Program-made: the position numbers and the translations under genes
Shown: piece after piece, positions 5,144 through 48,695 of the stretch
Numbering within the stretch: position 1 is the first letter of the stretch
Layout of the letters: each line of letters opens with the position of its first letter
Assembly (NCBI GenBank): GCA_029379385.1
Contig: CM055608.1
Coordinates: 26,348,350 to 26,412,349 of the forward strand
Reading direction: 5' to 3'
Length of the DNA stretch: 64,000 bases
Source of the DNA: Quillaja saponaria
Taxonomy: Eukaryota > Streptophyta > Magnoliopsida > Fabales > Quillajaceae
Notes under the pieces: model-generated
Databases searched by the model: none
What the model was told of the DNA's origin: nothing
What the model saw: only the letters and a program-made list of their open reading frames with translations

Positions 5144-5239
5144 TATAAAATCTAGTTCAGGGCTGCCAAAAAGGAAATGGAGGAGGAAAGGAAGAAAAGG
5201 GGAATGTCACATGTGAAGGTAGCAAAAGAGGTTCCAATG

Positions 5240-5247
5240 GCATATCC
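5240..5247 (+). promoter_or_regulatory. P1BS-like PHR1 binding site
   Basis: The sequence GCATATCC fits the palindromic P1BS consensus GNATATNC bound by PHR1-type MYB-CC factors, which activate phosphate-starvation genes. It lies about 120 bp upstream of the TATA-like box at 5366 and 480 bp upstream of the miR399 mimic site. One 8-bp match alone is weak. Its position next to a miR399 mimic is what makes it credible. Confidence 0.5.
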
Positions 5248-5365
5248 TAGGGAAGATGCCAAATTTGCAATATCCCTTTCTCTATTTTTTTCCTATTGCT
5301 CTTTCCTTTTAAGTTCCATTTAACCAAAAAGTTAACCCACATTACTAATTAAGTCATCTCAACCT

Positions 5366-5372
5366 TTTATAG
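5366..5372 (+). promoter_or_regulatory. TATA-like box for the putative lncRNA
   Basis: TTTATAG lies between a pyrimidine-rich stretch and an A/C-rich leader, a typical plant TATA context. It would place the transcript start near 5395. A stronger TATAAAA at 5144-5150 is the alternative and would put the P1BS box inside the transcript. Confidence 0.35.
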
Positions 5373-5721
5373 CCCTCATGACCAAGCAAATACTATAACA
5401 ACCACTACAACATTCATAATCAAACCCTCTTATTACTATTACTACTCCACCATCCCACTCCATCATCATGTAAGGCATTTGCTCTTTTCTGCAGCCACCG
5501 GCCGGCCACACCCTGTCAGTACCTGATCTGTTTATGGATCCAGTTTCTTCAAACTTGTCTATCAGTAGGGGATCCATGTGGTCGGTTGTGTTACACTTCA
5601 TGCTCATAAGGTTAGGAATGGAATGTTTAAATGAGTGGGTGGTGGTAGAAACAAGAGAAAGATTGCCGGAAACTGAATTCGTTACTTCTATTGAGAGCTT
5701 TTTTACTCAGTTCTCTTAAAA

Positions 5722-5743
5722 GGGCAACTTCGATCCTTTGGCA
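5722..5743 (+). promoter_or_regulatory. miR399 target-mimic site with central bulge
   Basis: The 5' arm GGGCAACTT (5722-5730) and the 3' arm TCCTTTGGCA (5734-5743) are complementary to miR399. They are separated by CGA, which leaves three unpaired bases opposite the miRNA cleavage position. The same arms and a 3-nt insertion define the conserved IPS1/At4 motif. The opposite strand does not match a mature miR399, because the bulge is extra, so this is a mimic and not a MIR399 gene. Confidence 0.85.
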
Positions 5744-5888
5744 TTTTCATTTCCTGGGAATCTCATTTCATTTCGTTGTGATTTCGAATTCTCGAGGAAA
5801 CTCAAACATGGTTGATCCAGATTTTTAATTATGTATTTTGGTTTCTGTTTGTGTTGTAGTATTAATGTTATGCTGGTACTAATTAGCC

Positions 5889-5894
5889 AATAAA
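5889..5894 (+). terminator. Poly(A) signal of the putative lncRNA
   Basis: AATAAA, followed closely by overlapping AATAAT and AATAAA-like hexamers to about 5901, lies about 150 bp past the miR399 site. It would give a transcript of roughly 520 nt, in line with the family. Confidence 0.4.
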
Positions 5895-5949
5895 TAATAA
5901 ATCAGGTCTCTGATCCATATATAGTTTGAGCTATCATGCCTACAATTAC

Positions 5950-18683: not shown

Positions 18684-21600
18684 TCAAGTTGGAGCATAAA
18701 AATTATATGTTCCAAGCTTGTTGCATAGATATCGCAGTCGGTTTCCTGCCAAAGATTTTGTGAATAAGTCTGTTAACTGATTTTCTGATTTTGCATATGT
18801 AGTGTTGATTGTATTATCCATAAGTTTCTTACGAACAAAATGACAGTCAACTTCTATATGTTTTGTTCGTTCATGAAAGACTGGATTTGATGCAATATTT
18901 AATGCAACTTGATTATCACATACTAACTCCATAGGCTGTGAGTGCTGAAATACAAGTTCGTCTAATAGATTTTTCAGCCAAACTAACTCAGCAGTGGTAT
19001 GAGTCATGACCCTATATTCAGATTCAGCACTGGATCTTGCAACAATAGTCTGCTTTTTGCTTTTCCATGAAACAAGATTTCCACCCAGAAATATACAGTA
19101 TCTTGTAGTAGATCTTCTGTCAAATTGAGAGCCTGCCCAATCAGCATCGCTATAACCTTGAACTGGAGTAGAATTTTGTTTATGGACTAATGTATGACCA
19201 CGACCATGTCCTCGAACTAGAGTGTGTCTATGATTCTTATATAATAATCCCTTTCCGGGTGCAGTTTTAAGGTATCTTAGGATATGAATAACAGCATTGC
19301 AATGAGATGTTCGAGGTTGAGAAAGAAATTGCCTAACCATACTATTTGCAAAAGCAATATCTGGTCTAGTGCCTGTGAGATAATTCAGCTTACCAACAAG
19401 ACGTCTATATTGCTAAAGATTTGTCAGTAGCTCCCTCTCATCTGATACAAGTTTAGTGTTGGGATCCATAGGAGTATCTACAAGTTTGGAATCCAACATA
19501 CTTATATCACTCAAGACATTCAGACAATACTTTCTTTGAGAAAGGCAAATACCCAATTGTGATCTTGTAACTTCAATGCCCAAGAAGTATTTTAGCTGTC
19601 CTAAGTCTTTAGTTTGAAACTTAGATTGTAGGAATGATTTCAATTGCCGAATCCCATAATTATCATCACCTGTAATCACAATATCATTCACATATACAAT
19701 TAAAAGAATTTTTCCATTAGGTGTATGTTTATAGAAACTGAGTGATCAACAGTACACATCTGAAGGCCAAAACTAAGAACAACTTCACTGAATCTACCAA
19801 ACCAAGCTCTAGGCGATTGTTTTAAGCCATATAGAGACTTTTTCAATTGACACATCATACTGGATTCTCCTTGAGCAACAAAACCAGGTGGTTGTTCCAT
19901 AAAGACTTCTTCATCAAGATCACCATGTGAGAAAGCATTTTTGATGTCCAATTAATAGAGTGGCCAATCAAAAATAGCAGCTAGAGATATAAATACCCTG
20001 ACAAATATAATTTTAGCTACAAGAGAGAAAGTTTCTGAATAATCCACACCATAGACCTGAGTGTAGCCTTTTGCTATCAATCTAGCCTTTAAGCGATCAA
20101 CAGAACCATTGGGATGAACTTTTATGGTGTATACCCATTTACATCTAACAGTGGATTTTTCAGAAGGTAAATAGACAAGTTCCCAAGTACCATTAGTATG
20201 TAAGGCATTCATTTCATCAACCATGGCCTGCCGCCACTTGGGATGAGCAAGAGCATCATTGGTGGACTTTGGAATAGAAATAGAAGACAAAGAGGAGACA
20301 AATGCATAATAGGGTGAAGATAAATGATGATAACTCAAAAAGTATAAATAGGATAAGGATTACGAGTTGAACGAGTACCTCTTCGTAAAATAGGTAGTGA
20401 AGTAGGATCCGAGGCACGGGAAGGTTTTGGGACAAAAGATGAGTCATCAGGTACATCAACAGTGTCTGCTGGAAGATCAGGTAGTAGCGCAAATGATGCA
20501 TGGTCATTTGGCCCAAGATAAGGAACCAGAAGAGCCTCAGAGATAGAAGGTGACTCTGGAATAGTCGAGGAAAAGAATGAAGATTCCTAAAAAAATGTAA
20601 CATCAGCGGAGATAAAGTAACGATTCTTATCTGGCAGTAACATTTATACCATTTTTGAAGGCGAGAATAACCCAAGAAGATGCACTTAATTGATTTGGAA
20701 AAGAGTTTATCCTGTCCAGGTGTTAGATCATGAACAAAACAAATGCAACCAAAGATACAAAGCGGAAGTGAATATAAGGGATGATTAGGAAAGATGATAG
20801 AATATGGAATTTTGTTATGCAATGTAGAAGATGTCATACGATTAATAAGGTAGCATGCAGTAAGTACAACATCACCCCAAAACCGAAGTGGAATATGACC
20901 ATGAAGTAATAGAGTGCGAGCTGTTTCAATTAAATGTCTGTTTTTGCGCTCAGCAACTCCATTTTGTTGAGGGGTGTGAGAATAAGATGATTGATGCAGC
21001 ATACCTTGAGATGTCATAAAGTGCTAAAATGATGTAAAAAAATATTCACATGCATTATCATTACGCAAAATATGAATAGAAACACCAAATTGTGTTTTAA
21101 TTTCAGCACAAAACTGTTGGAATATAGAAAATAACTCATAACGATTTTTCATTAAAAATAACCACGTGCAACGAGAATAATCATCAATAAAGGTTACGAA
21201 ATACTGAAATCCCAAAGATGAACTAACACGACTAGGACCCCAAACATCAGTATGAATAAGATGAAAGGGAGACTCTGCTCTAAAACGAATATGATTTGGA
21301 AATGAAGAACGTGTGTACTTGCCAAGCTGACATGATTCACAATTTAAAGATGACAGAGATGACAAACGAGGAACCATCTTCTGAAGCTTAGATAGACTAG
21401 GATGACCTAATCAACTGTGAATGAGAATATGTGATACATCTGTAAAGCAAGCCACTGAAGATGTAGGTAGTGTGGTAAGATGGTAGAGGCCATGTGACTC
21501 ACGCCCTGTGCCAATCGTTCGTCCCGTACATCAGTCCTGTATAGTAAAAGAATCATCAATGAAAGTGACAGAACAATTGAGAGAACGAGTCAATTGACTA

Positions 21601-25950: not shown

Positions 25951-26217
25951 ATTAAACTAACCGCATTCCTCACGAGCGGTGGTTAAAGAAGGAAGTCAAA
26001 AAATATGTTGGGATGAAAATTATTTTCCTTTTGAAAAGCTTTGAATATTAGATTTGTATAATTCCAAATTAATATTAATTACTATCCTAAAAAAATAAAA
26101 TTTGTTCATCCAACAAAGATTGGGTGAAGGGCTATAATGGTCATTTCACGTAGCTTTTAATTTCACACTTTTATTTACGGATCTGCCATTTGCCCCGTCC
26201 AAAAATTCCTTTCTCTT

Positions 26218-26631
26218 TTGCCTTTCTCTCTCCCTCTTTATCTCTCTCTCTCTCTCTCTCCTTTCTTCTTCAGTTGCTCAGTTCACCCTTCAATACCAGT
26301 GAAAATCGTGGACCCAACCCATCTCTCTCATTCATCTCCATTTCTCTTCAAAAACAAAATCCATTCTGAAGAAAAAGAAAGCAGGAGGAAGAAAACCCTC
26401 TCCAAAACCCTAAACTGCCCAGTTCTAAATTCACACACCTTTCTTCACTTTCCTCTGACCCCAGTTCAAATTTTTTTACTTTTCATGCCCTCATCTGATA
26501 TCTGGTATAATTGCCTCACTCAATCCTCATTTTAAACTCCTAAAGTTTCAACATTTTTTTTTCAATATATATTTCTTATTTGGTTTTTTTCAGATTTGGG
26601 GACAGATTTGTGAGAATACTTCAAAGAGGCC
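26218..26631 (+). promoter_or_regulatory. 5' leader region of the IDM1-like gene, probably with a leader intron
   Basis: A CT-rich tract (about 26240-26262), common at plant 5' leaders, starts this region. A polypyrimidine stretch followed by CAG at 26591-26593 is a good 3' splice site just before the last 38 bases of leader, so a leader intron is likely. Its donor may be GTATAA near 26504. The upstream frame at 26218-26535 starts before the ATG of the gene and has no domain; I take it as leader sequence. Confidence 0.5.
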
Positions 26632-29600
26632 ATGAAGCAAGAATTGGATTCAATTATGGTGGAGATTCAATCTGATGACCATGGTGACTCGCTCGGTCCA
26701 ACTAGTGGGTCAGAGACTGCAACTCAGACTGAGTTTCGGAAGAATTTTTGTATACAGGTTTCTGAGAATGCCCGTAGTAAAATAGTTAAAGGTTCTGTGG
26801 TGAACGGTTTTATTGTTTATACTCGAGATAGGAAGTCTAGGACTGGCGTGTATAATGGATTTTCTGAGAATGAGAAAACTAAGAGACATAAGACGTCTGA
26901 AGAGCCTGAGATTGATGAGAACCTTCCTGTTGAGGATGATAGAATGGAAGAAGAGGTAGGAAACTTAATGGGAGATGGGGTGAATTGTAATTCTGAAAAA
27001 CTTATGTCTCATGAGAAGCCAGAGTGCGAGCCTGCACAGTCTCTGGCTGTGGAACATGGCTCTGAGGAGAATTCTGTAGTCATTGTTAAGAGTAGTGATT
27101 TAGAGAAAGAATTTCCGGAAAAGACATTAAAGCGGTATACACGATCAGCATTAAAGTCAAAGGTTGGCTTGACTGGCTGTGTATCAGAACCTGTTCAAAA
27201 TGCAAGCCCAAAATTAGATGGGAAGGTAGCTTCTTTAAATGCATTATCAACTCCGAAGAACAAGCTGGAATTGAAGATGTCGAAGAAGATTGTGCTGACT
27301 AAGAAGCCTATGACAGTCAAGGAGCTGTTTGACACTGGTTTACTTGATGGGGTTCCCGTAGTTTACATGGGTGGCAAAAAGGTTATTTTCTAATACCAAT
27401 CCTAACTACATCTGTGCTTGCGCCTGTAAAGTGGGCGATGCTTAAATGAGTTATTGATTTGTACGTGACTCTATGAAAATGAGCACAATTAACATTTTAG
27501 TAACAGAATTGCAAGTTGATGGCTTCTTACACAAGCTTTTATGGTTGATAGATAAAACTTTCAAAAACATTCTCTGCTTGATATCTGTATGAAAATGTTG
27601 AGCTACATACTCTACCTAGTGGTTAATATTGTTGAAATATTATCACAGGCATCAGGTCTCCGGGGAATTATTAAAGATGGGGGAATACTGTGCTCGTGTT
27701 CTTTGTGCAATGAACGCAGGGTGAGTATATGTTTTTCTCTGATTTATATTATTTTTGTATAACTGCTATTTCTTGAGCCTTTGCCTGCCTTCATTTATTT
27801 CCCCTTCTTGCTTTTACTGATGTAGGTTATTCCACCTTCCCAATTTGAGATTCATGCTTGTAAAACATACAGACGAGCAGCACAGTATATTTGCCTTGAG
27901 AATGGAAAGAGCCTGCTTGAGCTATTGAGAGCGTGCAGGGGCTCTTCTCTGCATACGTTGGAGGTGACAATTCAAAACATTGTATATTCTTTGCCAGAAG
28001 AAAAATACTTTACTTGTAAAAGATGCAAAGGTGAGGTTTTCTTATGTTAATTTCTGATCCATTGCAATCTTTTGATAGCAAGTTATTCTGTTAATGTGTG
28101 ATCATTTTAATTTGTTTTTATCAGCAAGCATTTAGAAAACATTTAAAAATTTTAACTTTTTTTTTTTTTGTCATTGTTTTGGACAATTTGTCATCTAGGA
28201 TCATTTCCTCCTTCCTGTGTGGCAAGAGTAGGGCCTATATGCGATTATTGCATGGAGGCCAATGAATCTCAAAGCAGTCCAAAGGCAACTGACGACATAG
28301 TCAGGTATTGAATTCTTTATGAGTTACTTTATGGAGCTTTGATTTGTGTTTTTCAACTTGGAAATCATGATTTTTTTTGAACTTGCGTAACTAGCTAATT
28401 TGGTTTCTTCTTAGCAATGTTTTCTTGTCAATTTTTATACAATTTCAAAAACAACCATTCCCTGTATTATATATATATATGTTATAACTTAATAATTCTG
28501 GTAATGCAAAATTTATAAAATAGCGTGGTTTATGTGAAGTACAAATTATGTTGGTTGGCTGCCTGATATCAATGTTCGAGTTGTCTAGTATTTCATACGG
28601 GATCAGAGAGACAACCATTTATGATTCAAGCGTAACATACTGAAAGTTCATCTCACATGAACTTGCACGTGGAACACAAACATAAAAAAACACAACACAA
28701 GTCATAAAAATTACACTTAGTCAGCAATTCCTGAAATTTGGAGGATGCCTTGTCCTATATCTGTGTACTTTCTCTCCCTCTTGATGAAATTTCTTTTCTT
28801 ATTAAAAAAGAAAACTGTTATTGAAAAGAAAACTTTTGAGACTTGAACTAATTATCATCTAAATAACCATTCTTTTACTATGTTATCAAGTATAAGAAAC
28901 AACCAAACTAAGTGTTGCCTTGTAGCCACATGTAAAGAGTTTTATGACATACCTTAAAGTGACATGGCAATTCAAAATGGACAACATCAAATCTAGGATT
29001 CATAGGGAAAAAAAACCTTATGGAAGGTACAATGTTTTGTTTTTAATCAATATTTTTCATTTCTGTTTTGTTTATTATTTCTTGTCCTTCTGTTTGCTAT
29101 GTTATAGGTCACCTGAATCAGTGTTAGTCATGAAGTCATCCCCTAGATCCACATTGCGTGTCGCTTCACAGATTAAGGATCATTGGAAGACAAGAACGAA
29201 GTTGGTATTTGTATCTATTATATTTTCCATATATCTGGAAAGTTTTCTCTGTACTACTTTTGGTCAGTCAGCAGCCTACTTTATTAATTTGGCTGGAATC
29301 TTATGCATATGAATAGTTGAAATCTTCTAATAATTAGGTGATTGGTGTTATTACAATGAGTTTTTCTAACATGCGCTATAAGGGCACTGGTTAAGGTGTA
29401 ATAAATGTATTCTTTGTAATTTGAAACATTTAAATTGAGTAAATCATTAATTACGTAATACTGAAATTGTAGCCAACCGCTATATTAAATATGACAAAGT
29501 TTCCATATATATATATATATATATATCATTTCTTATTAACTTATATTGCCTTCAACTATGTCATTTAAGGTCATCAAAACGTGTTATCAGCTCAAAGATC

Positions 29601-31084
29601 TCCAAAAGCGCCTCTGTGGTTATCGCACCACAGAATAAGAGTCTCCAGAAAATGAAGAAGTTTGTATCTACTACTACTTTTGACCATTGGTGCATTTAGG
29701 ACAAGTTGTTTCCTGGTGAATTGTAATCAACTTATTCTTCTTTCCTTTATCTTCTTAAAATAATTGTTTCTTGCAGGTCATCAACACCAGCTTCGGAATT
29801 GAAGTCCTCCATAAGTTCTGTAAAGAGTTCCTATTCTAAACATAATGTTCGGTGGAGGTTCACAAAAAAGTTAGTTATTTTCTTTAATTATGTTTTACTT
29901 TTTTTGGCTTGTGTTTTGCTGCTGGCTTTAGTTTCTGAATCTTTTATCATCAATGAAAAATCGAAAATCTCTACTTGTTCTTGAATGTCTTTTTTTTTTT
30001 TTTTTTCCCAGGCATCAACAGTTGCATAAGTTAGTTTTTGAAGATGATGGATTGCCCGATGGAACAGAAGTAGGATATTATGCACGTGGACAGGTTGTTT
30101 GTATGTATGATTTTATATATAAATTTCTACTTTTTTATATGTATGACCATGTAAATTAATTCATTCTCATGAACAGAAACTGCTTGAGGGCTACAAAAGG
30201 GGCTCCGGAATACTGTGTCGATGCTGTAACAGTGAGGTATTTCTCTTTTCTGCTTGCTCTTGTAAGTTTGTAGGTGATACTTGAGAATTTATAAATTGTA
30301 TTGGCAATTCCTAATTGAAATTTAATTTACAGATCAGTCCATCACTGTTCGAAGCTCATGCAGGCTGGGCTTCTCGCAAGAAACCGTGGGTTTTTGTTTA
30401 AAATATTCAGTAGTTTTTTAACTTGAGTCTGGTGTCTGGATTTTTGACAGTGCCTATGTTTTTGGCAGCTATGCATACATCTACACTTCAAATGGTGTGT
30501 CTCTTCATGAATTTGCATTATCTCTCTCGAAAGGTCGCAAGCACTCTCCTGAGACTAGCGATGATTTGTGCATTATTTGTAAAGATGGTGGAAATCTTTT
30601 GCTTTGTGATGCATGCCCAAGGGCGGTCCATCAAGGTCAGATATAAACTTCGATTTATATAATGCATAAATTGTATAGATTAGTGATATGTGAATTGCTT
30701 TGGGAAAGAATAATGAAGATGCTCAAAAGAACTACCACAACATATTCATATTTCCAACATCCCCTTCTATTCCCCTTCCTTCAAGAACAAATAGAAAATG
30801 AAAGAAACAGTAAGTACAAGTTTCTCTATTGTGCCGTACTATCAGACTGGTCTGTGATATCCATGTGTTTATTCGTCATGTTGAATGAAATACTGTTAAC
30901 TTTGCCATGTTTTCAGTCACTTTGATTATACAGCATTTTTGACCAGGATGTTTTCTCAGTCATTATAGAGTATTGTTGTTGACATATTGCCTGACGGGTT
31001 TGGACTTACATGAGAGATTTTATGAGGATTAACTATGGTATATTTACCCCCACACATCAGAAACAGGCTTCTTGGGTACTCAAA

Positions 31085-31130
<46 letters not shown>

Positions 31131-34100
31131 TGATTTTCCATCATAACATACTATTTAATTATTATAAAATAAGATTTAGTATTGTTTTGACATACATATG
31201 ATATTAATCAATTATTTCAAACAAAAGACTGAACCTTCTTCCTGACACTTTGATTTTGTTTTATGTTCATTATTGATTGAGTTGCTGGCATCATTTGAGA
31301 AGAAATTTTGCTTCTCTCGATTCGTTGCTGGATAGTGGCTTGCCCAAGTAGAATTTTATGTTGTTTGTGTTTTTATTGGTCCATGCAGAATGCGCATCTT
31401 TATCTAGCATTCCTCGTGGTAAGTGGTACTGCACATATTGCCAGAATATGTTTCAGAGAGAAAGGTTTGTAGAGCACAATGCCAATGCTGTTGCAGCTGG
31501 TAGGGTTGCAGGAGTTGATCCTATAGAGCAGATAACCAAGAGATGCATACGCATTGCCCAAAACATTGAAGATGAGTTTAGTGGATGTGTGCTTTGCAGG
31601 TTATGAATATGTCCCAGTCAGAAATTTGAAGCTTGTTGGAAAAGTCTTTATCTTCATATTGCTTCTTATAATGACAATTTGTTGCATGTTCTTTAATGCT
31701 ATATTTTTTAATATATCAATTATTGTATATAACTGCTTGCTAAGTGAAGCATACATATATATAATAACATAAGAAAAATACATTGTTACACGCAGGTATT
31801 TTGACTTTAGCGCATCTGGATTTGGTCCTCGCACAGTTATACTTTGTGATCAGGTATCAATATTAGTTCATTTCGCAGAATGTCATATATGAGGTCTCAT
31901 AAGTCAGCATGAAGTGTCACTTTTGGTTAAGGTCCCTTGTTCATCTATGGATATAATAATGGCGTGCTTAGTTCTTGATTGAAGCAAGCATTGACCAGCT
32001 AAGGGGTTGCATCTTTTGTATACTGAATGACTAGCAATTCACCTCTTCTGTTTTTTCTTCTCTTCCTTGTGCTCTAGTGCGAAAAGGAATATCACGTTGG
32101 CTGTTTGAGGGATCATAAAATGGCATATTTGAAGGTACGTAGTTTTCTCATTTTCTTCTTGATAGATCCATTAAATATGCATTAGTCAGTATGAAGCCAT
32201 ATCCCGTCAACATGCAAGTATGCAACCCTATTTCTGGAACAAAATGATGATGCAACTTGTACAACAGGAGTTGCCACAAGGGAAGTGGTTTTGTTGTTCA
32301 GACTGCAAGAGAATACATTCTACCTTGCAGAATCTGCTTTTAAGTGGAGCAGAGAAACTCCCAGACTCCTTGTTGTATGCTATCAAGAAGAAGCAGGATG
32401 GGAAAGGTTTAGAATCTGCCATTGACATCGATGTAAAATTTAGAGTTATAAACAGAAAAACTGCTTCTCCTGAAACCACACCATTGCTTTCAGAGGCTGT
32501 GTCAATCTTTCATGTACGTTCTTCCCATCCCGCATCAATTTTTTGTGTGTTATTCATCTCAAGCTATATTCATATTTTTTTTTATTTTGGTTCCAACAAT
32601 GTAAGCTGCTGAGTCCAATTACTTTGTGTCATGAGTGTCCTTAATATGCATAGGATATTCATTTATTTTTTATCATGTAAATATCTCTGATGAAGTATTT
32701 TCTTCATTTTTTTTAGCTTTCTAATGAATTAAAATGTCAGGCAATAAATAGAGCCCTGTTCCCTTAATGTTGACATTGAAATCACCATAAGAGTTACCAT
32801 TTTATGTCACTTGAAACCGATTGCACCATTTGATGAAAGCATGCTTTTATCTTCCATTGAAGCTATAAGTCTTATGAGGGAAAAGCTTTACAATCTATTT
32901 TAGGTTGCTAAGTCAAGCAAATGCAATTCTCAAAAGAAGAAGCATGACTTGAAAAAATTAGTAAATTTTACTTCCAGGAATATCTTGGTGATTTGCATGT
33001 ATGAGATTGTCAATGTTTAGGCTGGTGATCCTTTGATTTTAGGTATGATTTTATTTGCACTTGTCTAGGATTAGTTACGTGGCTGTTTATATGTACTGTG
33101 TACATATGTGTGTGTGTGTGTGTATGTATGCCTATTGTAATTGTAATAGGATTGTGTTCTGATGCTAAGTATATTGAGTTTAATGTTTAAGTAATTTGCT
33201 ATAAGGTCTTATTGTATTCAGAATGATTTTCTTTCTGGGCTCTTCTTGTTTGGACTTCAGAATTTGTGAGAATTTACATGTTTGTATAGCCAACATAGTA
33301 AGAAAATGCATGCAGGCTTGGGAGCTGCAGCCTGAGTTTTATGGGACTCGATGACTTTAGGGTTTTGATTGGGATACCCCAAGAATGGGGTTTGATATTT
33401 ATGGGTGATGAGACGCACATGTGGGATATCCTTGGTTAATCTATGCTATATAAACAAATCCTTGGAATCCTCTATTGTGTGGAATCTCTTTGGGGCTAAC
33501 ACCACGTGCTTTAGCACATTCCATGAGCTATCATAGATTTTTGGTGATTTTGGCCGTTGTTTTTGTTGTTTAGGCTACAGATTGTCCGGTTATTAGTTTC
33601 ATTTGATTTGATATTATAGGATTGATGAGTATTATTCTTATTCAGAAACTCTTCTTTTGATAGGACTATCATAGTATATATCTTCAGTGTTATTCTTGTG
33701 CTTCTATTAAAGGCTTGTAACTAGAATTCTTTGTCTTTTATTAATGTAATATTCCGAGTTTTATCTTCTAATGATTAATAGGCATTAAACTCTTCAAGTG
33801 AAACTCTTAGAATGCAGGGTGGACTCCAATATTTACTCATATTTCACATATCATCTACTTCTTCTGCTGTTTTTCTTCATCTCCTCCATTCCTTTTGCTC
33901 CATATGCAGATCAAATTTAAGTTCTATTCAATCTTAAACAATCTCTTCTACAAAATCTTATACCAGCCCTTGATTGATTTGCATTGAATCTAAAAATGAT
34001 ATTCAGAGGTGATTGTGTTACTGTTTGCAGCCTGAAACATTACCCTTGTTCTTAATTTGTACTCTATGTTTGAAACTTGAACCACATTACTTTAGCTACA

Positions 34101-37100
34101 ATATACTTAACTGAAACACAGATATGCCCCTATGTGAGGTGTACTGGTATCGGATATGTATTCAAATAAAGCGACCCAATCCCTAAAGCTACATTTTTCT
34201 CAAATGAAAAATTTGCAGAACCCTAATTCCCTAAGTTTTCTCATTCTATCTGTTTTCTGTTAGGGGTTGATGATTCTGAATCTGAAATTTTCAAGGCTGA
34301 GTGACGCTCTCTCCTTCTCACTCTCTTCCTTGATCTCACAGTTGGAGATTGTCTGATCTGGATCTCACACGGCTTAGAGAGTCATACTGTTGGGGCTAGG
34401 CTGTTTTTTTTCTTTTTAACCTGAACCAATTGCAATTTGTTATTTCAGTTAGGTTTTTTTTTTTTTTTGCTTAAAAAAGAACAATTGCAATTTGCTGAAT
34501 AATGAGTGCTGACTATAAATTTTTTAATTTTCTATTTCAATTAGGTTTTTTTTATTTTTTATTTTTAACTTCTTTCAAAGACTATGTAATTTTTTTATGT
34601 TTATTATTCGTCTTTTATTTCTTAATTTGAATACGTAATAAGGAGATATATAAGAACATTAAGATAAAACACATCGAAGAGAAAATGAGAGAGAACTACT
34701 TACGTTGGTTTGGACATATCCAATGTAGGCTAGTGGACACCGTAGTTAGGAGAAGTGACTTGGTGTAGGTGGTAAGTGGTAGGTGTTAGACGAGTTAGAA
34801 AGATATTGAACCTTACATGGGGGCAGTCATTGAGAAAGATTTGAGTGCTCTAGGCATTACTGAAAACGATGCTTTGGATCGTTGCGAATGACGGAAAATG
34901 ATTAATAGAGCCGACCTCAACTAGTTTGGGATTTAAGGCTTAGTTGAGGTGAGTTGAGTTCATTAAGACTATGATTATGATTTGAAATAAATAAAATCTT
35001 TTGATAGTAATATTTGTGCTTTTATTATTAGTTCTAAACTGTTTATATTTTTTGTGAAAATAAATAGTATTTTTTTGAAAATATTTAATTCGATGTATAC
35101 TGGATGTGCTTCACAGTTAACCCCTCAGTTTTAATTATGTAAGCAATTATTTAAATCTAAGTTTGCACCCTCAAACCTTTTAACTAGCTGATGCCAGCAG
35201 AATACACAACTTTTGTGTCTTTTCTGTGTCCTCAACTTGTTTATCCCTAAAGCTACATGAAATTCAACCGTCTCCCTTTCCATAACTCCACTTTCTTGCT
35301 ATAACTATTGAAGATGCAATTTGATCCTGGGTCCTTACAAAGACACAAGCAAATTTTACTAACTGAATTTGCTAGCACCTTCAATGCACGTGTCTTTTCC
35401 TCAATTATCCATTTTTCTACTTAATTCTTGGAAAATTACTAGCTTAATGTTCACCTTATTTTAATCTGCTTCTGGTACAATGAAGAAGCTTTACCATCTT
35501 GTGGAGAATAGGTTATTCTGCTGGGGTTTGTATAATCTTATTTGGGATTGCACCTTCCAAATCAGTCATAGTTTAATTGTCTAGATATTCAATTGTGACC
35601 TTGTCATTGCCATGAAACATTCTGGGGCTGCCAGTAATGATTTGGAGATACGTTCTGTTCTCTTCCTGTTTCTGTCCGGAGACTGTTCTTTACTTCTTTA
35701 GTCCTCAAGCCCCAGGACAGTTCTCTAATATCCTAGCGTCAGCATTTAAAGAAATTTTGTGGAAACCATTTTAGTAAATGTTGGTGGCAACATTAATTGG
35801 TGGAGAATCTAAGCCTGGTGCAACCTGAGTATTCTGATTGTTTTCTCCAGCTTTTGTCAGTTGCAATTGCTTTTTACTACTTGTTCATCAACTACTAGCA
35901 GTGCCATAGTGGTTCACCTACTCCAACCTTTGTTGTGTTTATAAGCATTATTGTGTTTTATGGTGTCCAAATATGAGTGTGTTTTAGTGATATCAATTCA
36001 AAATTTCAAATTCATCACTTGGCATGTTGGTATGCAATTTATTATGTTACAAGTGATGCTTTAATCTCTTGCTCTTATGGTAATGAGTGCACACAAGAAA
36101 AATAGTAAATTCTCGTATTGTTATGAAAGTGATTTTTATTGGTGCAAGATTATGTTCAAATGAGGTTTATATTTCAGGAATGCTTTGACCCTATAGTTGA
36201 TTCAGAGAGTGGATGTGACCTTATTCCAGTGATGGTAGACGGGTGAGATTTAAGTTCTTATTCCTAGATTCATTCATGCTGTTTCTTTTATTCTTTAACA
36301 TTTTCTTTTCTTTTTCACCTCTGGTAAGAAATTAACATTCATCTTTCCCACAAGTACAGAAAGAAAATAAGGAACCAAGATTTCAGAGGAATGTATATTG
36401 CGGTACTAATGGTCAAGTAAGAAGTGGTTTTGCCTCTATGTTGTCTGTTGTCAAACCCAAAGAACATTGTTCACATACTCTTTCATTGGTTACAGTTCAT
36501 CAGTGGTATCAGCTGCAATTCTTCGAGTTTTTGGCAGAGATGTTGCAGAACTCCCTTTAGTTGCAACAATCAATGGTTGCCATGGGAAGGTGAGTGACTG
36601 ATTTGTGAGTTTGGTAGCTTCTTCTAGTATCATGTTTCTCGTTACTTCTGTTGAAGGTCAGACCATGCTTTGGATAAAAGATTGTTAACTCTTACATGTA
36701 TGAGTGCATTCGCTTTTCTCTGGAACGATAATAGTACCCTCAGTTTTGATTTTGTTGGCTTTACCTTAACAGGGCTACTTCCAGACATTGTTCACCTGCA
36801 TTGAGAAGCTGCTGGCTTTCTTGGAAGTGAAGAGCATTGTTCTCCCAGCAGCTGAAGAAGCAGAATCCATATGGACAAATAAATTTGGTTTCAAGAAGAT
36901 AAATCCGGACCAGGTGTGTATATTTCTGTATTTTACCCTGTAACTTTGCTAATTGAATGTAACTGCCTTGTGTCAAACTTTTGTGAAATTGTAGTGCTGC
37001 TTGTCTACTAAGGCTTCGTAATCTAGCTTGTTGCATGTTTTTTTTACCTTTAATAAAATTTAACTTGTGTATTGTGCTGCAGCTTATCAACTACAGAAAG

Positions 37101-37187
37101 AACTGCTATCACATGGTGACCTTCAATGGAACTTCCATGCTTCAGAAGATGGTTTCTCGATGTCGTATTCTCAATGTTTCATCATGA
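26632..37187 (+). CDS. IDM1/ROS4-like PHD-finger and GNAT acyltransferase protein, 20 coding exons
   Basis: Coding exons: 26632-27381, 27649-27720, 27826-28030, 28199-28304, 29108-29200, 29570-29659, 29777-29869, 30012-30093, 30177-30236, 30333-30385, 30469-30635, 31389-31599, 31796-31853, 32078-32134, 32268-32513, 36178-36242, 36360-36416, 36496-36589, 36773-36913, 37083-37187. Every junction is GT-AG and phases agree, giving 934 residues. Residues 1-225 are charged and probably disordered. TDBD-type domains lie near 230-310 (MTVKELFDTGLLDGVPVVYM) and 475-560. A Cys4-His-Cys3 PHD finger spans 569-608 and a second, longer PHD-like unit 657-712. A GNAT domain follows at about 740-890, with the acetyl-CoA loop around CHGKGY (850-855). 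The family is nuclear; Arabidopsis IDM1 acetylates histone H3 to aid DNA demethylation. The order matches At2g36720-type proteins. Catalysis and specificity are inferred. Confidence 0.93.
31080..31128. repeat. TA microsatellite in intron 11
   Basis: About 20 uninterrupted TA units in the intron between exons 11 and 12 of the IDM1-like gene. It generates short Ile-Tyr frames on both strands that are not genes. Confidence 0.9.
32514..36177 (+). other. Long intron 15 of the IDM1-like gene
   Basis: This intron of about 3.7 kb separates the second PHD unit from the GNAT domain and is by far the longest of the gene. It starts GTACGT and ends TTTCAG. It contains an RTE-type LINE fragment at 34670-34975 and otherwise no frame or RNA gene that I recognise. 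Confidence 0.85.
34670..34975 (+). mobile_element. RTE-type LINE 3' fragment inside an intron
   Basis: The plus strand reads KMRENYLRWFGHIQCRLVD, then VVRRSDLV, then EKDLSALGITENDALDRCE. This is the stereotyped C-terminus of plant RTE-clade LINE polymerases. It is followed by the terminal phrase CAACTAGTTTGGGATTTAAGG and GCTTAGTTGAGGTGAG, the normal RTE 3' end with a degenerate TTG-type tail. Stops are present. It is 5'-truncated, sense-oriented to the host gene and confined to the intron. Confidence 0.75.
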
Positions 37188-38880
37188 TTTTGATTTTCAA
37201 TCTTCTCTTTTTGGCCGGTTTTTATACATGTGTGTACTTTTGCTATTTAAATTTACCCTGAACCATAAACACCAACTTTTTATGCATTTGTGATATCATT
37301 GAAATGCTCCAGTCATTTCACCAAAAAAAAAAAAGAATATGCTCATTAGAAATTGTTGGGTTTGCTTATTTTGCAAAAGGCGTCAACCCCAGTGAGAAAA
37401 TACATGTTTCGGACCCCAATTTTCAATCTATGTATATATAACATGCCGTTTCAGAGAGAAATTAATCATCAATGCTTTTTCTTATTTCTAAAATGAACTT
37501 TTGGTTTTATAGTTATATTACTTGCAGGTTTTTTATTTTATTTTAATTTTTTATTCCATATGTTAATAATATTAATAAATAGGTTAATCTAACAAGATAC
37601 ATTTATTAATTGTATTTAAATAAAATACCTGTTTATTTTACAGTTTTGCATTAGGATTAAATTTTTTAACACGATTAATAAACTTGTTGGGTTAAAGTTG
37701 GCTTAATTATGTCAACTAAGAAGGTTAACAAGGTATGAACTTGATATTCAAACACAAATTGCCACATTTTACACATAATTTTAGGTTATATATATTAAGA
37801 GTGATGTGTAAGTGGAATGAAAGTCTTGATAGGCTTTGTTATTAATGGTTGCGGTGTTTGAACTAATGTACTTGAGAAAAATGTTGTAATACACACAGCG
37901 TTGGATCGCCAGTAATTAATAAGTAATAATATACTATATATTATCCCATATACAAAAACCAGATGATAAGCTTGGCAAGAAAGATACAGACGAGGTCTCA
38001 TCAAACGTCAGTGTTAATGTGTTACAGTCATCGGGTGAGAGAAGTCTGAGTCACCCATTGTGGATTTGATTGTGTCCTGAATGTTCTTAACAGTTAATAT
38101 CAGGGAATGGTGAGAACATGGGTTTTTCATATAAAACCCAAAAATTACAGATGGCTTGTTTTTCTTTTGGATCATCAAAAGAATATTGAGAGTAACAAGA
38201 GATATTTTTGGGAAATAATTTTGGATATAGTATCAAAACTCGAAATTCTTTATGACTAAATTATATAAGGAGTTCTTGTCATTATTTATTTTTATAATAA
38301 TAATTTTTCTATCGAGTGTCCTTGATAAGATATAATAAATAAGAAATTTAGGATTTGAAATATTCTACAAATAATAAAGTATTTATCTTACAACACTAAA
38401 TCATGGCTAACGACTATAATAAATAATATAAAATTTCTATGTTTAGTACTTTAACAAATGCTTTAAGAGCACTCATTAGAAAAATTCTTAACTAAAATAA
38501 GTATCAGTAAGATGAGTCCCAATAAAACATGTGTAAAATCAAAACCTATTTATAAAATTGTTTTAGTTTCGGAATGGATAATTTACTTTTAATTAGATAG
38601 AAAATGTGAATTAATCTAAGTGCGTAGAAAACTGGCTTAAACTATTTGATTGTCTAAACTTAATTCAATTAAGTCTTAAATTCTAAATTAGTTGATCCTA
38701 CTCTCTTCTCCTATGAAATCCTTACTAAAAAAACATCAAAATACAAAGAGTTTTTGGCCTGGCAATATTAAATCCTTTTTCATACATACTAGAATAGAAA
38801 AATGAAATGACTTAAATTACAAGGCGAAGTGAATATCTCTCCAATAAATCTTTATTGACAACTTAAACTTTATGTACAGA
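37188..38880. other. 3' flank of the IDM1-like gene and intergenic DNA
   Basis: The 3' UTR starts here, and the next gene ends on the opposite strand at 38907, so the two genes converge. I see no other frame of interest; the sequence is AT-rich throughout. Confidence 0.5.
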
Positions 38881-38883
38881 GGT

Positions 38884-38988
38884 AGATTGTTCCATAACAT
38901 GTTGAATTAAGAGTGCATTAATGTTAAGTTGAGATGAGATTGTTCCATAACATGTTGAATTAAGAGTGAAATGTTAAGGTGAGATGAT
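38884..38988 (-). repeat. 53-bp tandem duplication across the UGT stop codon
   Basis: The phrase AGATTGTTCCATAACATG plus TTGAATTAAGAGTG occurs at 38884 and again at 38937, with flanking GTTAAG..GAGATG in both. The period is 53 bp, not a multiple of three. The second copy is read in another frame, so the protein gains about ten C-terminal residues (SHLNLTLMHS) after the family-typical HVMEQ. Confidence 0.85.
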
Positions 38989-40409
38989 CCTTTTTCCTCT
39001 GTAGCCCTTCTTGCAGTCTCTCCAAGTTCTCTTGCTCTATTTCTTCTCCTCTCACTTTCTTCATTTCCATCCATCAACAATATCTCTATTATAGCTTCCT
39101 TAATTCTCTCTTTCTTTATCAAGACTCCAACTTTCTCTTCCTCACCCCACCTTACCGGAATCTCAACGCCTATCCGAACACCGATCTTTATAATTTCGAC
39201 AATAAACTTTTCATTGAAGAATTGCTCAGCAAATAAAGGCCAAGTTATCATTGGGACCCCAGAGCATACTCCTTCAAGTGTTGAGTTCCAACCACAGTGT
39301 GTCAAGAATCCTCCAATTGCAGGGTGTGACAATATTAGAACTTGTGGTGCCCATCCTCTAATCAAAAGTCCCCTGCCTTTGATCCTTTCCTCAAAACCCT
39401 CTTCTAAAAACCACTTATCTAGCTCTGAATAATTTTCTTTTGCAGTTTTCACTACCCAAATAAATGGTTGTTTTGATGCTTCTAAACCTAAACCAAGTTG
39501 AATCAATTGGGCAGGGATAAGGCGACATAGGCTACCAAGGCAAGCATAAATCACTGACCTTGATTTCATTGAGTTAAGCCATGCCAAACATTGTTTCTCA
39601 TCAATTGTGGCTTTGTTACCTCTGTCAAACTTGTCCAAATTTTCCTTGTTACACAAAGAGACAGGGCCTATGCACCAAACCTTTTTGTTAATAGCCGTCT
39701 CATACTCCTCAGCACACCCATGTTCTAATTCTTCAAAGCTATTCACTACAACCCCATAAGCTGACAATTCAGCCTCTCTAATCTTGTCCCGGAAATCGTC
39801 TAAATCAGGCAGAGTAACAAATGTACCTGGAAGCTGTGCTCTTGTTATTTCAATCCTCTGGGGCAGCCCGGGCACCACGAAAGGTTCCAAGTCGGAAGTG
39901 ACAGAATTGTGGGCATTGTAGAGTTTGACATTATGAGAACAAAGTAATGAGAAGCAGCACATCCCATGGAAAACAATCCTCGGAATTTTGAACCTTTGAG
40001 CTGTAATTGATGTCCAAGATAGGCATTTGTCTGATATAATGCAGCTTGGTGGAGGAGTTTGGTCTTCTAGGTACTGTTCTAATGGTTCTTGTAGCATATC
40101 AAGAGCATTGTAAAATTTTCTGAGTAAATTTCTTGAAGGTAAAATGTCAAGATTCTCACAGCCAATTGGAAGTCCTACTTGTTTGCATGGAAATGGGATT
40201 TGTAGGAGCTGAATTGGAAGCCCTGAACTATTTGCTCTATGAATACTTTGCTCAAATCTTGAGGCATTGTATGGGGTACTAACTAATGTGACAAATATAC
40301 CTCTCTCTGCAAATAGCCTGGCCATGTCTATCATGGGAATCATATGGCCTTGTGCCATCAATGGGACTAAGACAAAGTGAGGCTGTTTCTGACAGGATTC
40401 TAAATCCAT
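38907..40409 (-). CDS. UDP-glycosyltransferase, UGT73C-like
   Basis: A single exon of 500 residues, normal for plant family 1 glycosyltransferases. It transfers a sugar, usually glucose from UDP-glucose, to a small hydrophobic acceptor in the cytosol. The catalytic His is H22 in AQGHMIPMIDMAR and its partner Asp is D127 in IISDKCLSW. The 44-residue PSPG box runs from W353 to Q396, including HCGWNSTLEGV and ending FAEQ. The final Gln is the residue usually linked to glucose preference, and W374 favours UDP-glucose or UDP-xylose. Blocks such as RIVFHGMCCFSLLCSHN, YGVVVNSFEELE, VWCIGPVSLCNKEN and VIYACLGSLCR are typical of UGT73C, whose members act on flavonols, brassinosteroids, zeatin or triterpenes. 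The acceptor cannot be told. The start codon precedes the conserved HFVLVPLMAQGH block. The last ten residues come from a 53-bp tandem duplication over the original stop. All key residues are present, so it looks functional. Confidence 0.95.
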   Translation of the reverse strand: MDLESCQKQPHFVLVPLMAQGHMIPMIDMARLFAERGIFVTLVSTPYNASRFEQSIHRANSSGLPIQLLQIPFPCKQVGLPIGCENLDILPSRNLLRKFYNALDMLQEPLEQYLEDQTPPPSCIISDKCLSWTSITAQRFKIPRIVFHGMCCFSLLCSHNVKLYNAHNSVTSDLEPFVVPGLPQRIEITRAQLPGTFVTLPDLDDFRDKIREAELSAYGVVVNSFEELEHGCAEEYETAINKKVWCIGPVSLCNKENLDKFDRGNKATIDEKQCLAWLNSMKSRSVIYACLGSLCRLIPAQLIQLGLGLEASKQPFIWVVKTAKENYSELDKWFLEEGFEERIKGRGLLIRGWAPQVLILSHPAIGGFLTHCGWNSTLEGVCSGVPMITWPLFAEQFFNEKFIVEIIKIGVRIGVEIPVRWGEEEKVGVLIKKERIKEAIIEILLMDGNEESERRRNRARELGETARRATEEKGSSHLNISLLIQHVMEQSHLNLTLMHS

Positions 40410-41280
40410 TTGCAGAAGGAGTGGCTGATGAAAAATTGTGCTGAAAAGATATTAGTGTAAATGAAATAGAAATCAGTACAGGTATTTTGGATTAATATTG
40501 GGCAAAGTCTTGTAAAGTGAGCTTGACTTGGAATGGTTCAAAAACTACTCCAACTGGGCTAGTTTATATTATGCATAATTTGCAACTTCTTGGTAATTGA
40601 AAACCACAAACAAACTAAAATACCAATCAATTGCTTGACCCAAACTTAAATTCTGGGTTTGATTCAGTCAACTGTTGCGTGAGTAATGAAGGAAATGATA
40701 CTTGTTATCTTGTGCATGTGGGTGAGATATTTCCATTTTCCATTTATTGAATCAACATTCTATGTAACCCGATCAAACTGTTATCCCTATCTCTCTCTCT
40801 ATATACCTATCTCTCTCGTATATATTTTATTTTGTATCTTTTGACGATATTATTTTAAACTTTATTTAATATTTAAACTATAAATTTGACCATGTCTATA
40901 CGATGTCATGAGATAACATGTATATATTATAAGATGGAAATCATATTTAATTATTTTCAATTTACTTAGAAGTAATATAGTCCAGATTAAGGAAGTTTTT
41001 AATCTGTTTTTCTTTAAATTTAAACAAATAGTCTAATAATAACAAGAACTTGACCTAGAGATTTTTTTGGGCCAGTGGAAAAAAGCCTGCTCGACTTTCT
41101 TGTATTGCATGACAAGCTGTAAATTAAATCCTGACCCTTCTGATTAAGAACGGGACAGATTAGGTGGTTAGCTTTCGGATCAACCAATGGGCCAACAACC
41201 TTTTTTTTGGGTAAGAGACATCCAACTACTTTCACCCTAACTTTTTCTTCTTCTTTTTGGGACAAACCCCAAACTTTTTC
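40410..41280. other. Upstream region of the UGT gene
   Basis: This is the probable promoter side of the minus-strand UGT. A CT-rich and TA-rich stretch lies near 40790-40830. No sure core promoter motif stands out. A minus-strand 81-codon frame (41020-41265) has no domain and I do not call it. Confidence 0.4.
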
Positions 41281-43952: not shown

Positions 43953-46900
43953 ATGCAAAGAAGTGACTGTATTGCTGGCCGAGAGGAGCAACAGGAAGTT
44001 GGCTCCGATCAGGGATTTATTGATCCCCAGACACCTGCAGTTAGAGGCAGGTGTCAACGAGGACACATTAGGGGTAGATCTTGAGGCAGGGTTGCTAAAC
44101 TAGTTCAGGCAGTAGCTTTTGGTATCGACATGGAGCAGTTAGTGCAGGGATTAGACCGTATTCAAAAGGCAGTAGGTGATTTAGTTGGGATTTTGGCCCA
44201 ACAACAACAAGCTCAGTAGCAACCATTGATAGTTCCCCCTGTTCAGCCGCAGCAAGAGGCAAACCCCCCAGCTCCAGTTTAGTAGGATCGGGGGGTATTT
44301 ATGACATTACAAGATTTTAGAAAGATACAGCTGCCGAGATTTTCTGGGGTTGATCCAGTTCAGGATCTTTATGCTTTCCTTGATGAGTCAGACTGATTGT
44401 GTATAGCTTTGGGATGTGATCCCATCCATGCAGTTGAGTTGGTTAGCTATCAGTTACACGATGTGGCTTATGATTGGTATAAAACATTGGTGCAGCGACA
44501 GATTGAGCCTACTCTACTGATGTGCCAGAGTGCAGCAGAGCTTTTCTAGATTGCTTTTTACCTGAGAGTGTGCAAGACAAGCATGCTCATGATTTTGAGT
44601 GATTGGTGTAAAGTGAGGGTATGTCAGTAGCGAAGTATGAGACTCGATTTACTCGACTGTCTCGTTTTGCCCCTTATTTGGTCGCCACGAGGAGATGAGG
44701 GTGAAGAGATTCATGCATGGATTGAAGGATTATTTATTCAGATAAGTGTTTATCTCAGACACTACTACTTATACACAAACTGTGGATGCTGCTTACCTAT
44801 TTGAGACTAAGGTGGTGGAGAGACAGATGGAACGGGAAAGTCATAAGAAGGCAAGGCGGAAGGGTTCATCGACCTCTTAAGCTAGCAGTTCAATGAGGCC
44901 TGAGGGTGAATCTACCTCTAGGCAGAGTTCATTCAGAGGAAATTTTCAACCAGGTAAAAGTCAGATGAGGCGAGGTTCAGGAGCTTAGTTTCAGGGAGGA
45001 TCGTTAAGCGGACCCCTATCATATGAGTTCCCTACGTGCTCTATTTGTGGCTATAGGCATACTGGGTAGTGTAGACTAGGGACATGTGCATGCTTTAAAT
45101 ATGGAGTGATGGATCATCATATTAGAGATTGTCCACTGTTAAGGTCAATCCACTTCATTCGGAACCTCTTTGTCGGTTTAGGGTAGACCTCCACTTCCTG
45201 CAACACCTACGAGACCTCCAAGGTGCGTGGTGGTTTCTCTAGGGGTTATTCATCGGTAGGGAGAGGTCAGGCCTGAGTCTATGCTCTGACGACTCAAGAC
45301 ACCAGGCTTCTAATGCAGTGGTATCAAGTAATTTGTTTGTTTTTTCCATTAGTGCTAAAGTGTTATTTGATTCAGGAGCTACTTATTCCTTCATCTCACC
45401 ATATTTTGCTTCTCGTGTGGGGAGAGTTGTGATGCCTCTTGAGATCCCTCTAGCAGTTTTAACCCCGTTGGGGGAAATTATCTTAGCAGACCATCATATA
45501 TCTTTGTGCAAAGTTCTTGTAGGGGATGCTAATTATCTAGCAGATTTGATCATTCTGGATATGCTGGAATATGATGTGATTCTAGGCATAGATTGGTTGT
45601 CTGATCATCATGTTGTGGTAGATTGTTGTGATAAGAGTGTTAAGGTCAGCATCCTTGCCAAGCTGACTGTTACTGTTCAAGAGGGATCAGAGTGAGGTTC
45701 CTCGCAATTTAATTTTAACTATTCAGGCAAGACGACTTATCAGGAAGAAGTATCAAGCTTATCTAGCTTTTGTCAGAGATACTTAGTTAGAATGTCTTCC
45801 TTTAGATCGTATTCCAGTAGTAAAGGAGTTTTTTGATGTTTTTCCAGAAGAGCTTCTAGAGCTTCCTCCCGACCATAAGATTGAGTTCGGCATTGAGTTA
45901 TTACCTGGCACTCAACCAATTTCTCTTCCCTCCTATAAAATGGCTCCTAGTGAGTTAAGGGAGCTTAAAGTGCAACTACAAGATTTGCTAGATAATGGAT
46001 TCATTCATCCTAGTTCATCTCCTTGGGGTGCTCTTATTTTGTTTGTTAAAAAGAAGGATGACTCGTTTAGATTGTGCATCGATTACTGACAGTTAAATAA
46101 GGTCACAGTTAAAAACAAGTATCATATCTCCAGGATTGATGACTTATTTGATCAACTACAAGGAGCTCAGTGTTTTTCTAAAATTGATGTTCGTTCAGGA
46201 TATTAGCAGCTTCGAATTAAGAAAGAAGATATTTTGAAAATTGCTTTTCACACTCGATATGGGCACTATGAATTCTTGGTTATGTCTTTTAGGCTTACTA
46301 ACGCTTCTGCAGTATTCATGGATATGATGAATCGGATGTTTGAGCCTTTCTTGGACCAATTTTTTATTGTTTTCATTGACGACATTCAGGTATACTCTCG
46401 AAGTAAAAAGGAGCATGAGTAACATCTTTGTATGGTATTGCAAACACTTAGGGAAAATAAGCTTTATGTTAAATTCTCTAAGTGTGAATTTTGGTTAAAT
46501 CAGGTGAATTTTCTGGGGCATGTAATTTTTAAAGAAGGCATTCGTGTAGACCCAAGCAAGATAGAAGCAGTTCAAAATTGGCCTTGACCAACAAATTTAT
46601 CTAAATTTGCAATTTTCTGGGCTTAGTAGTGTATTACAGGAGATTTATAGAGAATTTCTCCAGTATTGCTGTTCCTTTGACTTGACTGACTCAAAAAGGA
46701 GTCAAGTGTTTGTGGTCCAAGACTTGTGAAGAAAGCTTTCAAAAACTAAAAACTTGTTTGATTGTATCTCCTATCCTTGTACTTCCTTCTACTATGGGTA
46801 AGTATATTGTATTTTGTGATGCTTCTCGTATTAGACTTGGTTGTGTTTTGATATAGGATGGAAGAGTTATAGCATATGCTTTTAAACAACTAAAAAAGCA

Positions 46901-48695
46901 TGAGGTGAACTACCCTACTCATGATCTTGAGATGACAGCAATAATTTTTACATTAAAGATATGGAGCATTACTTGTATGATGAGACTTTTGAGATTTTCA
47001 CAGATCACAAAAGTTTTAAATACATTTTTGATCAGAAGGAGTTGAATCTGAGACAACTTAGATGGATTGAGCTACTGGAGAATTATGACTGTTCGATTTC
47101 TTATCATCCAGGTAAAGCAAATGTGGTTGCCGATGCTCTGAGTAGGAAGTCTATAGGTAGTCTATCCCATTTGTCAGCTATGCGTAGTCAGGTAGTCAAA
47201 GAATTGTAGCAATGTATGGTTGAAGGAGTTAAATTCGAAGTGTCTCCTCAGGAGATATTGCTAGCTCATGTTCAAGTGCAATCCACTTTTGTGGAAGCCA
47301 TAAAAGCATCACAAGCAGTTAATCCAGAGGTGATTGCTGAAAAAACTAAATGTGAGCAAGGAATTACTGGTGATTTTAGGGTGGATGGTGAAGTGGTGTT
47401 GAGATATGGTGATAGGATGGTGGTGCCACCTGATTTAGAGTTGAGTAAGAAGATTCTTGAAGCAGCTCATTGTTCATCATATGTTATGCATCCTAGTTCT
47501 TCTAAAATGTATCAGGATTTAAGAAAATTTTATTGATGGAAAGGTATGAAGCAAGATGTTGCTGCTTTTGTTGCTAGATGCTTGGTGTGTCAATAGGTGA
47601 AAGCCTGCGGGGATGTTACAAAAACTGGACGTTCCAGAGTGGAAGTGGGAAAAAGTCACCATGGATTTTGTATCGGGACTTTCTAAAACTCTTAGGGGTT
47701 TTGATTATATTTGGGTGATTGTTGATCGTTTGACGAAGTTTGCACATTTCTTTCTAGTGAAGACCACTTACTCAAAACATCAGTATGCGAAGCTGTGTTT
47801 GGATAAGGTTATTTCATTACATGGAGTACCAGTTTCTATTATTTTTGACTAGGGTGCTCAATTTACTGCGGTATTTTGGAAATCTTTTCAGGAGACTCTT
47901 GGTACTCAGTTATTATTCAGTATTGCTTTTCATCTGTAAACTGATGGACAATCGGAAAGAACGATACAAACTTTGGAAGATATGTTGTGAGCTTGTGTGA
48001 TGGATTTTGAAGTAGCTAGGACCAGCATTTTCTATTAATAAAGTTTGCTTATAATAACAACTATCATAGTAGCATTCGGATGCACCATTTGAAGCATTGT
48101 ATGGTAGGAAGTGTCAATCTCTAGTTGGTTGGTTTGAGATGGGCAAGCATCAGTTGTTGGGGCTAGAGTTAATTCAAGAGGCTGTGGAGAAGGTTCAGGT
48201 GATTCATGATAGATTATGGACAGCTTAGAGCTAACAGAAGTCGTATGCTGATAATCGGATAAGACAGTCGAAATTTGATGTGGGTGATCACGTGTTCATG
48301 AAGATTTTTCCTTTTAAAGGCGTTATGAGATTTGGTAAGAAGGGTAAATTAAGCCCAAGATTTATTGGGCCTTTTCAAATTCTGGACAGGGTTAGCACAG
48401 TGGCGTATAAGCTGGAATTACACCCGGATTTGAATAGGGTGCATCCAGTATTTCATGTATTTATGCTTCGAAAATAATTGTTGGACGAATCTCATATTTT
48501 ACAAATTCAGGAGGTGCAAGTGAATATGGACCTGATGTATGAGGAACAATCAGTGAAAATTATCGATAAACAAGTCTGTAAATTTCGAGCGAAGAATATT
48601 CTTTCGGTAAAAGTTTTATGGCAACATCATGTCGAAGGTGAAGCTACTTGGGAATCTGAGAAGGAAATGAAATGACATTATCTATTTTTATTTGA
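43953..48695 (+). pseudogene. Gypsy gag-pol remnant
   Basis: Gag begins at an ATG at 43953 and includes LQDFRKIQLPRFSGVDPVQDLYAF (about 44305-44375), with stops. The zinc knuckle near 45100 reads CFKYGVMDHHIRDC, where its second Cys is Tyr. Protease: AKVLFDSGATYSFIS near 45360. Reverse transcriptase: [32 protein letters not shown], and FIDD at the catalytic site (46370). RNase [15 protein letters not shown] and [16 protein letters not shown] (46990-47150). Integrase: VTMDFVSGLSKT and WVIVDRLTKFAHF (47655-47750). The chromodomain part is KVLWQHHVEGEATWESE near 48610-48660. At least a dozen stops and frameshifts break it, so it is inactive. Confidence 0.88.

Follow-up and report, generated by a model that had tools for sequence, protein, structure and literature searches.

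Phosphate-starvation target-mimic RNAs of the TPSI/Mt4 (IPS1/At4) type carry a bulged miR399-complementary motif, and the criterion by which we recognise it here was taken from an earlier study (PMC3441763). Tomato TPSI1 and rice OsIPS1/2 belong to a family with a conserved 24-nt motif, described as two parts three nucleotides apart (PMC9118565). In Medicago truncatula, Mt4 / PDIL1 is an Mt4-like phosphate-responsive lncRNA, reported as a miR399 mimic sparing PHO2 (PMC5854128). At the promoter level, Bustos et al. (2010; PMC2936532) define a motif B (GAWGATNC) and report its close linkage to P1BS, the PHR1 binding site, in Arabidopsis, Medicago, tomato, poplar and maize genes related to IPS1. 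In their study, an Arabidopsis IPS1 promoter with a mutated motif B no longer responded to phosphate.

Here we analysed a stretch of 64,000 nucleotides from Quillaja saponaria, the soapbark tree of the family Quillajaceae (C4:26348350-26412349, hereafter the window), against the 351.8-Mb genome (213 contigs). On its plus strand the window contains GGGCAACTTCGATCCTTTGGCA, where a CGA bulge is flanked by two miR399-complementary arms, that is, the ~23-nt complementary motif, bulged by 3 nt opposite positions 10/11, that marks target mimics (Table 1). A decoy of two arms and a bulge had been claimed in an earlier reading made from the letters alone (the sequence-only reading), and its bulge lies precisely where that reading had placed it. 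The same bulge bases, CGA, are probably those of At4, and Arabidopsis IPS1 probably has CTA. We consider that the locus is very probably a TPSI/Mt4 (IPS1/At4) phosphate-starvation target-mimic RNA gene (probability about 0.93). This identity, already proposed by the sequence-only reading as IPS1/At4/Mt4/TPSI1 type, is supported by the decoy, the P1BS, a motif B which had gone unmentioned, the lack of homologues and Pfam matches for the two ORFs searched, a paralog with the same parts, and the miR399 and PHO2-like genes found elsewhere in the genome.

Table 1. Coordinates of the decoy gene and of related loci. Plain numbers are window positions; C numbers are contigs of the genome.
Feature	Position	Strand	Remarks
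P1BS (PHR1 binding site) GCATATCC	5240..5247	+	aligned counterpart on C3: GTATATCC
Motif B (GAWGATNC), reading GAAGATGC	5252..5259	+	4 nt downstream of P1BS; equal spacing at 4 loci
115-aa ORF	5362..5706	-	
TATA-like box TTTTATAG	5365..5372	+	TTTTATTG in the paralog
AUG-UAA start-stop inside CATGTAAGG	5468..5473	+	common to the C3 paralog (L009); upstream of the decoy in both
61-codon ORF	5534..5719	+	ends 2 nt before the decoy
Decoy GGGCAACTTCGATCCTTTGGCA	5722..5743	+	two arms and bulge
Decoy 5' arm GGGCAACTT	5722..5730	+	pairs miR399 positions 19-11; position 11 is G-U
Bulge CGA, 3 nt	5731..5733	+	opposite miR399 positions 10/11
Decoy 3' arm TCCTTTGGCA	5734..5743	+	pairs miR399 positions 10-1
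Poly(A) signals AATAAATAATAAA	5889..5901	+	AATAAA at 5889 and 5896
Locus B (L009), duplicate of the window gene	C3:29269785		
Locus C (L011)	C4:11107143	-	bulge TGA
Locus D (L012)	C1:2114231-2114310 (site C1:2114289)	-	P1BS and motif B, TATAAA box
Locus E (L055)	C1:1292548		4-nt bulge, P1BS within 280 bp
Locus F (L056)	C12:1171990		4-nt bulge, P1BS within 280 bp
Locus G	C2:5757354		
Cleavable-type site array (L053)	C5:7659445-7659929		5 sites
Cleavable-type site array (L054)	C13:10000628-10001175		4 sites
Further cleavable-type site	C4:30001387		
Further cleavable-type site	C7:18930225		

The decoy occurs once on the plus strand of the window and has two exact copies in the genome, the second being the duplicate on C3. 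Allowing up to three mismatches gave six matches in total, against one for a reversed-pattern control. With the varying position of the bulge left free, neither viral_contigs nor the prokaryote genome_contigs gave an exact match. The decoy was predicted to be no more accessible than with shuffled flanks: 31 of 60 shuffles reached or exceeded the observed value for the window gene, as did 33 for the C3 duplicate, 54 for locus C, and 13 and 27 for the first and second sites of locus D. The window, decoy gene included, gave 0 matches to Rfam at the gathering score, which we take as uninformative because Rfam is not known to contain an IPS family. Literature searches with the letters of the decoy motif returned no relevant paper, and those combining Quillaja saponaria with miR399 and related terms gave no mention of the species among the matches listed.

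Pairing was tested with seven of the 10 distinct mature-like miR399 21-mers found in the genome. The sequence-only reading had suggested pairing with the species' own miR399 as a check, and the predicted duplexes are best with the two GAGTTG forms, L022 (-33.0 kcal/mol) and L023 (-32.7 kcal/mol), where the 3-nt CGA bulge falls between positions 10 and 11, position 11 is a G-U pair, and the sole arm mismatch is terminal (position 21 for L022, position 1 for L023). The other five of the seven forms mismatch the decoy additionally at position 13, and three of these five do so at positions 20 and 21 too. Pairing is predicted to be weaker for L015 and L017, which are GATTTG forms (-26.4 and -26.5 kcal/mol, compared with -33.0 for L022). 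L022 and L023, the best decoy partners, score under the Rfam cut-off for MIR399.

Upstream of the decoy, P1BS and motif B are closely linked, as in the described promoters. The P1BS and the poly(A) signal that had been claimed are both present; the TATA-like box claimed with them is present too, but it is not fully conserved in the paralog and counts as moderate evidence. A P1BS alone is weak evidence, given that one is present in 15% of the 500-bp segments into which the window was divided with overlap, and a P1BS followed by motif B within 25 nt occurs once on the plus strand of the window and 0 times on the minus strand. The element GAAGAT[GT]C, always 4 nt after P1BS, was spotted by comparing loci A-D (A being the window gene), independently of the published motif B. 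With the published definition, the pair lies upstream of loci A-D but is missing upstream of E, F and G, giving four of the seven decoy-like loci. Across the whole genome and both strands, P1BS and motif B within 25 nt gave 681 matches versus 392 for the control; the pair on its own is thus no rarity and counts only jointly with a decoy, and we rejected it as a diagnostic elsewhere. The strict form P1BS-N4-GAAGATKC had 13 genome matches versus six for the reversed control, but loci A-D, the very source of the pattern, account for four of the 13.

These figures bear on the idea that the motif is a chance resemblance, or a piece of another transcript such as a minus-strand gene, to which an overlapping 115-aa ORF on that strand lends some substance. 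Searches with this ORF found neither a homologue nor a Pfam domain, and a minus-strand gene, named beforehand as an alternative that would refute the decoy, was rejected on that ground: protein evidence for one was not found in the ORF searched. Moreover, there are just two exact motif copies in 352 Mb, and a correctly oriented P1BS with motif B within a 500-bp upstream region would arise by chance at about 0.0005 per locus (an estimate from the 681 genome matches). We regard this explanation as extremely improbable.

The plus-strand ORF raises a different question, namely whether the locus is chiefly a small-peptide gene in which the decoy is secondary, since the 61 codons stop so close to the decoy. 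No homologue and no Pfam match were found for this ORF either, and its paralog begins alike (MDPxSSxL) and diverges in frame after ~9 residues. A peptide-coding role was rejected on these grounds; the ORF is probably not a functional protein, and a gene that is chiefly peptide-coding is hardly credible. The absence of a conserved protein, as originally claimed, is thus borne out for the two ORFs searched, one on each strand. Further upstream, the AUG-UAA start-stop inside CATGTAAGG also resembles a 5' splice site, and CATGTAAGG presumably occurs in Arabidopsis IPS1 as well.

The duplicate on C3 aligns with window positions 5148-5898 at 73%, with 569 of 748 ungapped positions identical (76%). 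The longest identical run measures 43 nt (window 5707-5749, plus strand) and spans the decoy; a simple calculation puts the expected number of runs this long at about 0.0014 for 76% identity. P1BS, motif B, the decoy and AATAAA are all retained in the duplicate, and the TATA-like box is partly conserved. A non-coding gene whose decoy and promoter are under selection would be expected to show this pattern. At a larger scale, window positions 26120-40695 match C3 colinearly, bar a few short or repeated off-diagonal matches, and the two genes sit in colinear duplicated blocks. Elsewhere in the window, a UDP-glycosyltransferase (73D1-like; 38910-40451, minus) has an 85% identical duplicate on C3; this is its best match apart from the window protein itself, a Quillaja saponaria protein that maps to C3 at 100%. 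The ORFs at 18687-21410 (minus) and 45243-47533 (plus) resemble, by eye, pieces of retrotransposon polyproteins.

The existence of two near-equivalent copies in the genome would also suit a decaying duplicate, in which the C3 copy is functional and the window copy no longer transcribed. Against this, the 43 nt over the decoy and its flanks remain identical, compared with 76% on average, and P1BS and motif B are also retained in the window copy. We therefore consider decay of the window copy unlikely, and prefer to see it as a target-mimic gene in its own right.

A miR399 decoy gene of this kind should coexist with its miRNA and its target, and the genome holds both the cognate miR399 and a PHO2-like target. 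With the Rfam model, at least 11 MIR399 hairpin loci were found at E<=0.001, at least six of them above the gathering score; these counts are lower bounds, 45 of 18,208 first-look candidates having been scored. Nine of the 11 loci yielded at least 11 mature-like 21-mers (10 distinct), some from opposite strands of one hairpin. Nine of the 11 hairpins have a P1BS no farther than 400 bp to either side, a contrast somewhat flattered because the background of 15% comes from shorter segments (500 bp, in the window). Cleavable-type miR399 sites gave 17 matches in the genome, six of them inside MIR399 hairpins, and include the arrays on C5 and C13 and two further sites (Table 1). Exons downstream of both arrays encode UBE2O-type SH3 domains, with a ubiquitin-conjugating domain (UQ_con) on C5 as well, as expected for PHO2/UBC24, and the two genes are accordingly classed as putative PHO2/UBC24-like genes. 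The nine PHO2-like sites read GGCAAATCTCCTTTGGCA, to which L015 and L017, both GATTTG forms, fit perfectly over their positions 1-18.

A wider bulged pattern (GGGCA, 5-9 nt, TCCTTTGGCA) had nine matches in the genome versus none for the reversed control. One of these (C13:12138665) falls in the MIR399 hairpin L015; the other eight lie at seven loci, labelled A (the window decoy gene), B (the C3 duplicate) and C-G (Table 1). Locus D has two tandem decoy sites, with 57 nt from one start to the next and bulges of 3 and 4 nt; the sites are copies of each other (a 50-base match, 80%). Locus G, which lacks a P1BS over 900 bp upstream, is probably a chance match. Loci E and F have related short acidic ORFs upstream, with a common acidic run ending DRI, and locus C has an acidic ORF loosely similar to these (all by eye). 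Loci A-F have bulges of either 3 or 4 nt and also vary in how many sites they carry and in miR399 isoform fit. Among the literature matches listed, no report of natural tandem miR399 mimics was found, which is not proof of absence. This wider decoy family, including the two-site locus D, is more unusual than the window gene itself. If all six decoy loci (seven sites) are transcribed, it is conceivable, though we hold it doubtful, that different decoys buffer different miR399 isoforms, A and B favouring the GAGTTG forms over the PHO2-fitting GATTTG forms.

From the features of the locus we infer that the window gene is transcribed and induced, escapes cleavage and sequesters miR399. When phosphate is scarce, P1BS would be occupied by a PHR1-type factor, with motif B helping, and the promoter so switched on would yield a polyadenylated RNA of ~500 nt, with a start placed near 5395 and an end near 5920. 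Both arms of this RNA would pair with miR399, while the CGA bulge, lying where slicing takes place, would block cleavage. The decoy is accordingly proposed to hold miR399, so that PHO2 mRNA would be partly spared.

We regard the window gene as a well-founded addition to a target-mimic family that is already well known. Annotation based on proteins easily overlooks genes of this sort, and the window gene has no Rfam match at the gathering score. Together with its duplicate, its promoter module, MIR399 and the PHO2-like genes, it makes up a candidate phosphate-signalling circuit in a woody non-legume member of the Fabales. Variant decoys within one genome could also be used to test how bulge, site number and isoform fit set the strength of a decoy.

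Compared with known systems, the window gene resembles Arabidopsis IPS1 (AT3G09922) and At4 (AT5G03545) in having a decoy whose 3-nt bulge faces positions 10-11 (as described in PMC3441763), a P1BS closely linked to motif B in its promoter (PMC2936532), and no long conserved protein. It differs in the number of P1BS, with one within 900 bp upstream of the decoy versus two reported for the IPS1 promoter in that study (PMC2936532). The host of Mt4 / PDIL1, Medicago truncatula, belongs to the Fabales, as does soapbark, and the likeness to this lncRNA is one of description. Tomato TPSI1 and rice OsIPS1/2 are likened to it by their described motif. Finally, the artificial short tandem target mimic (STTM) finds a natural counterpart in locus D on C1, with its tandem sites, whereas the window gene is a single-site decoy.
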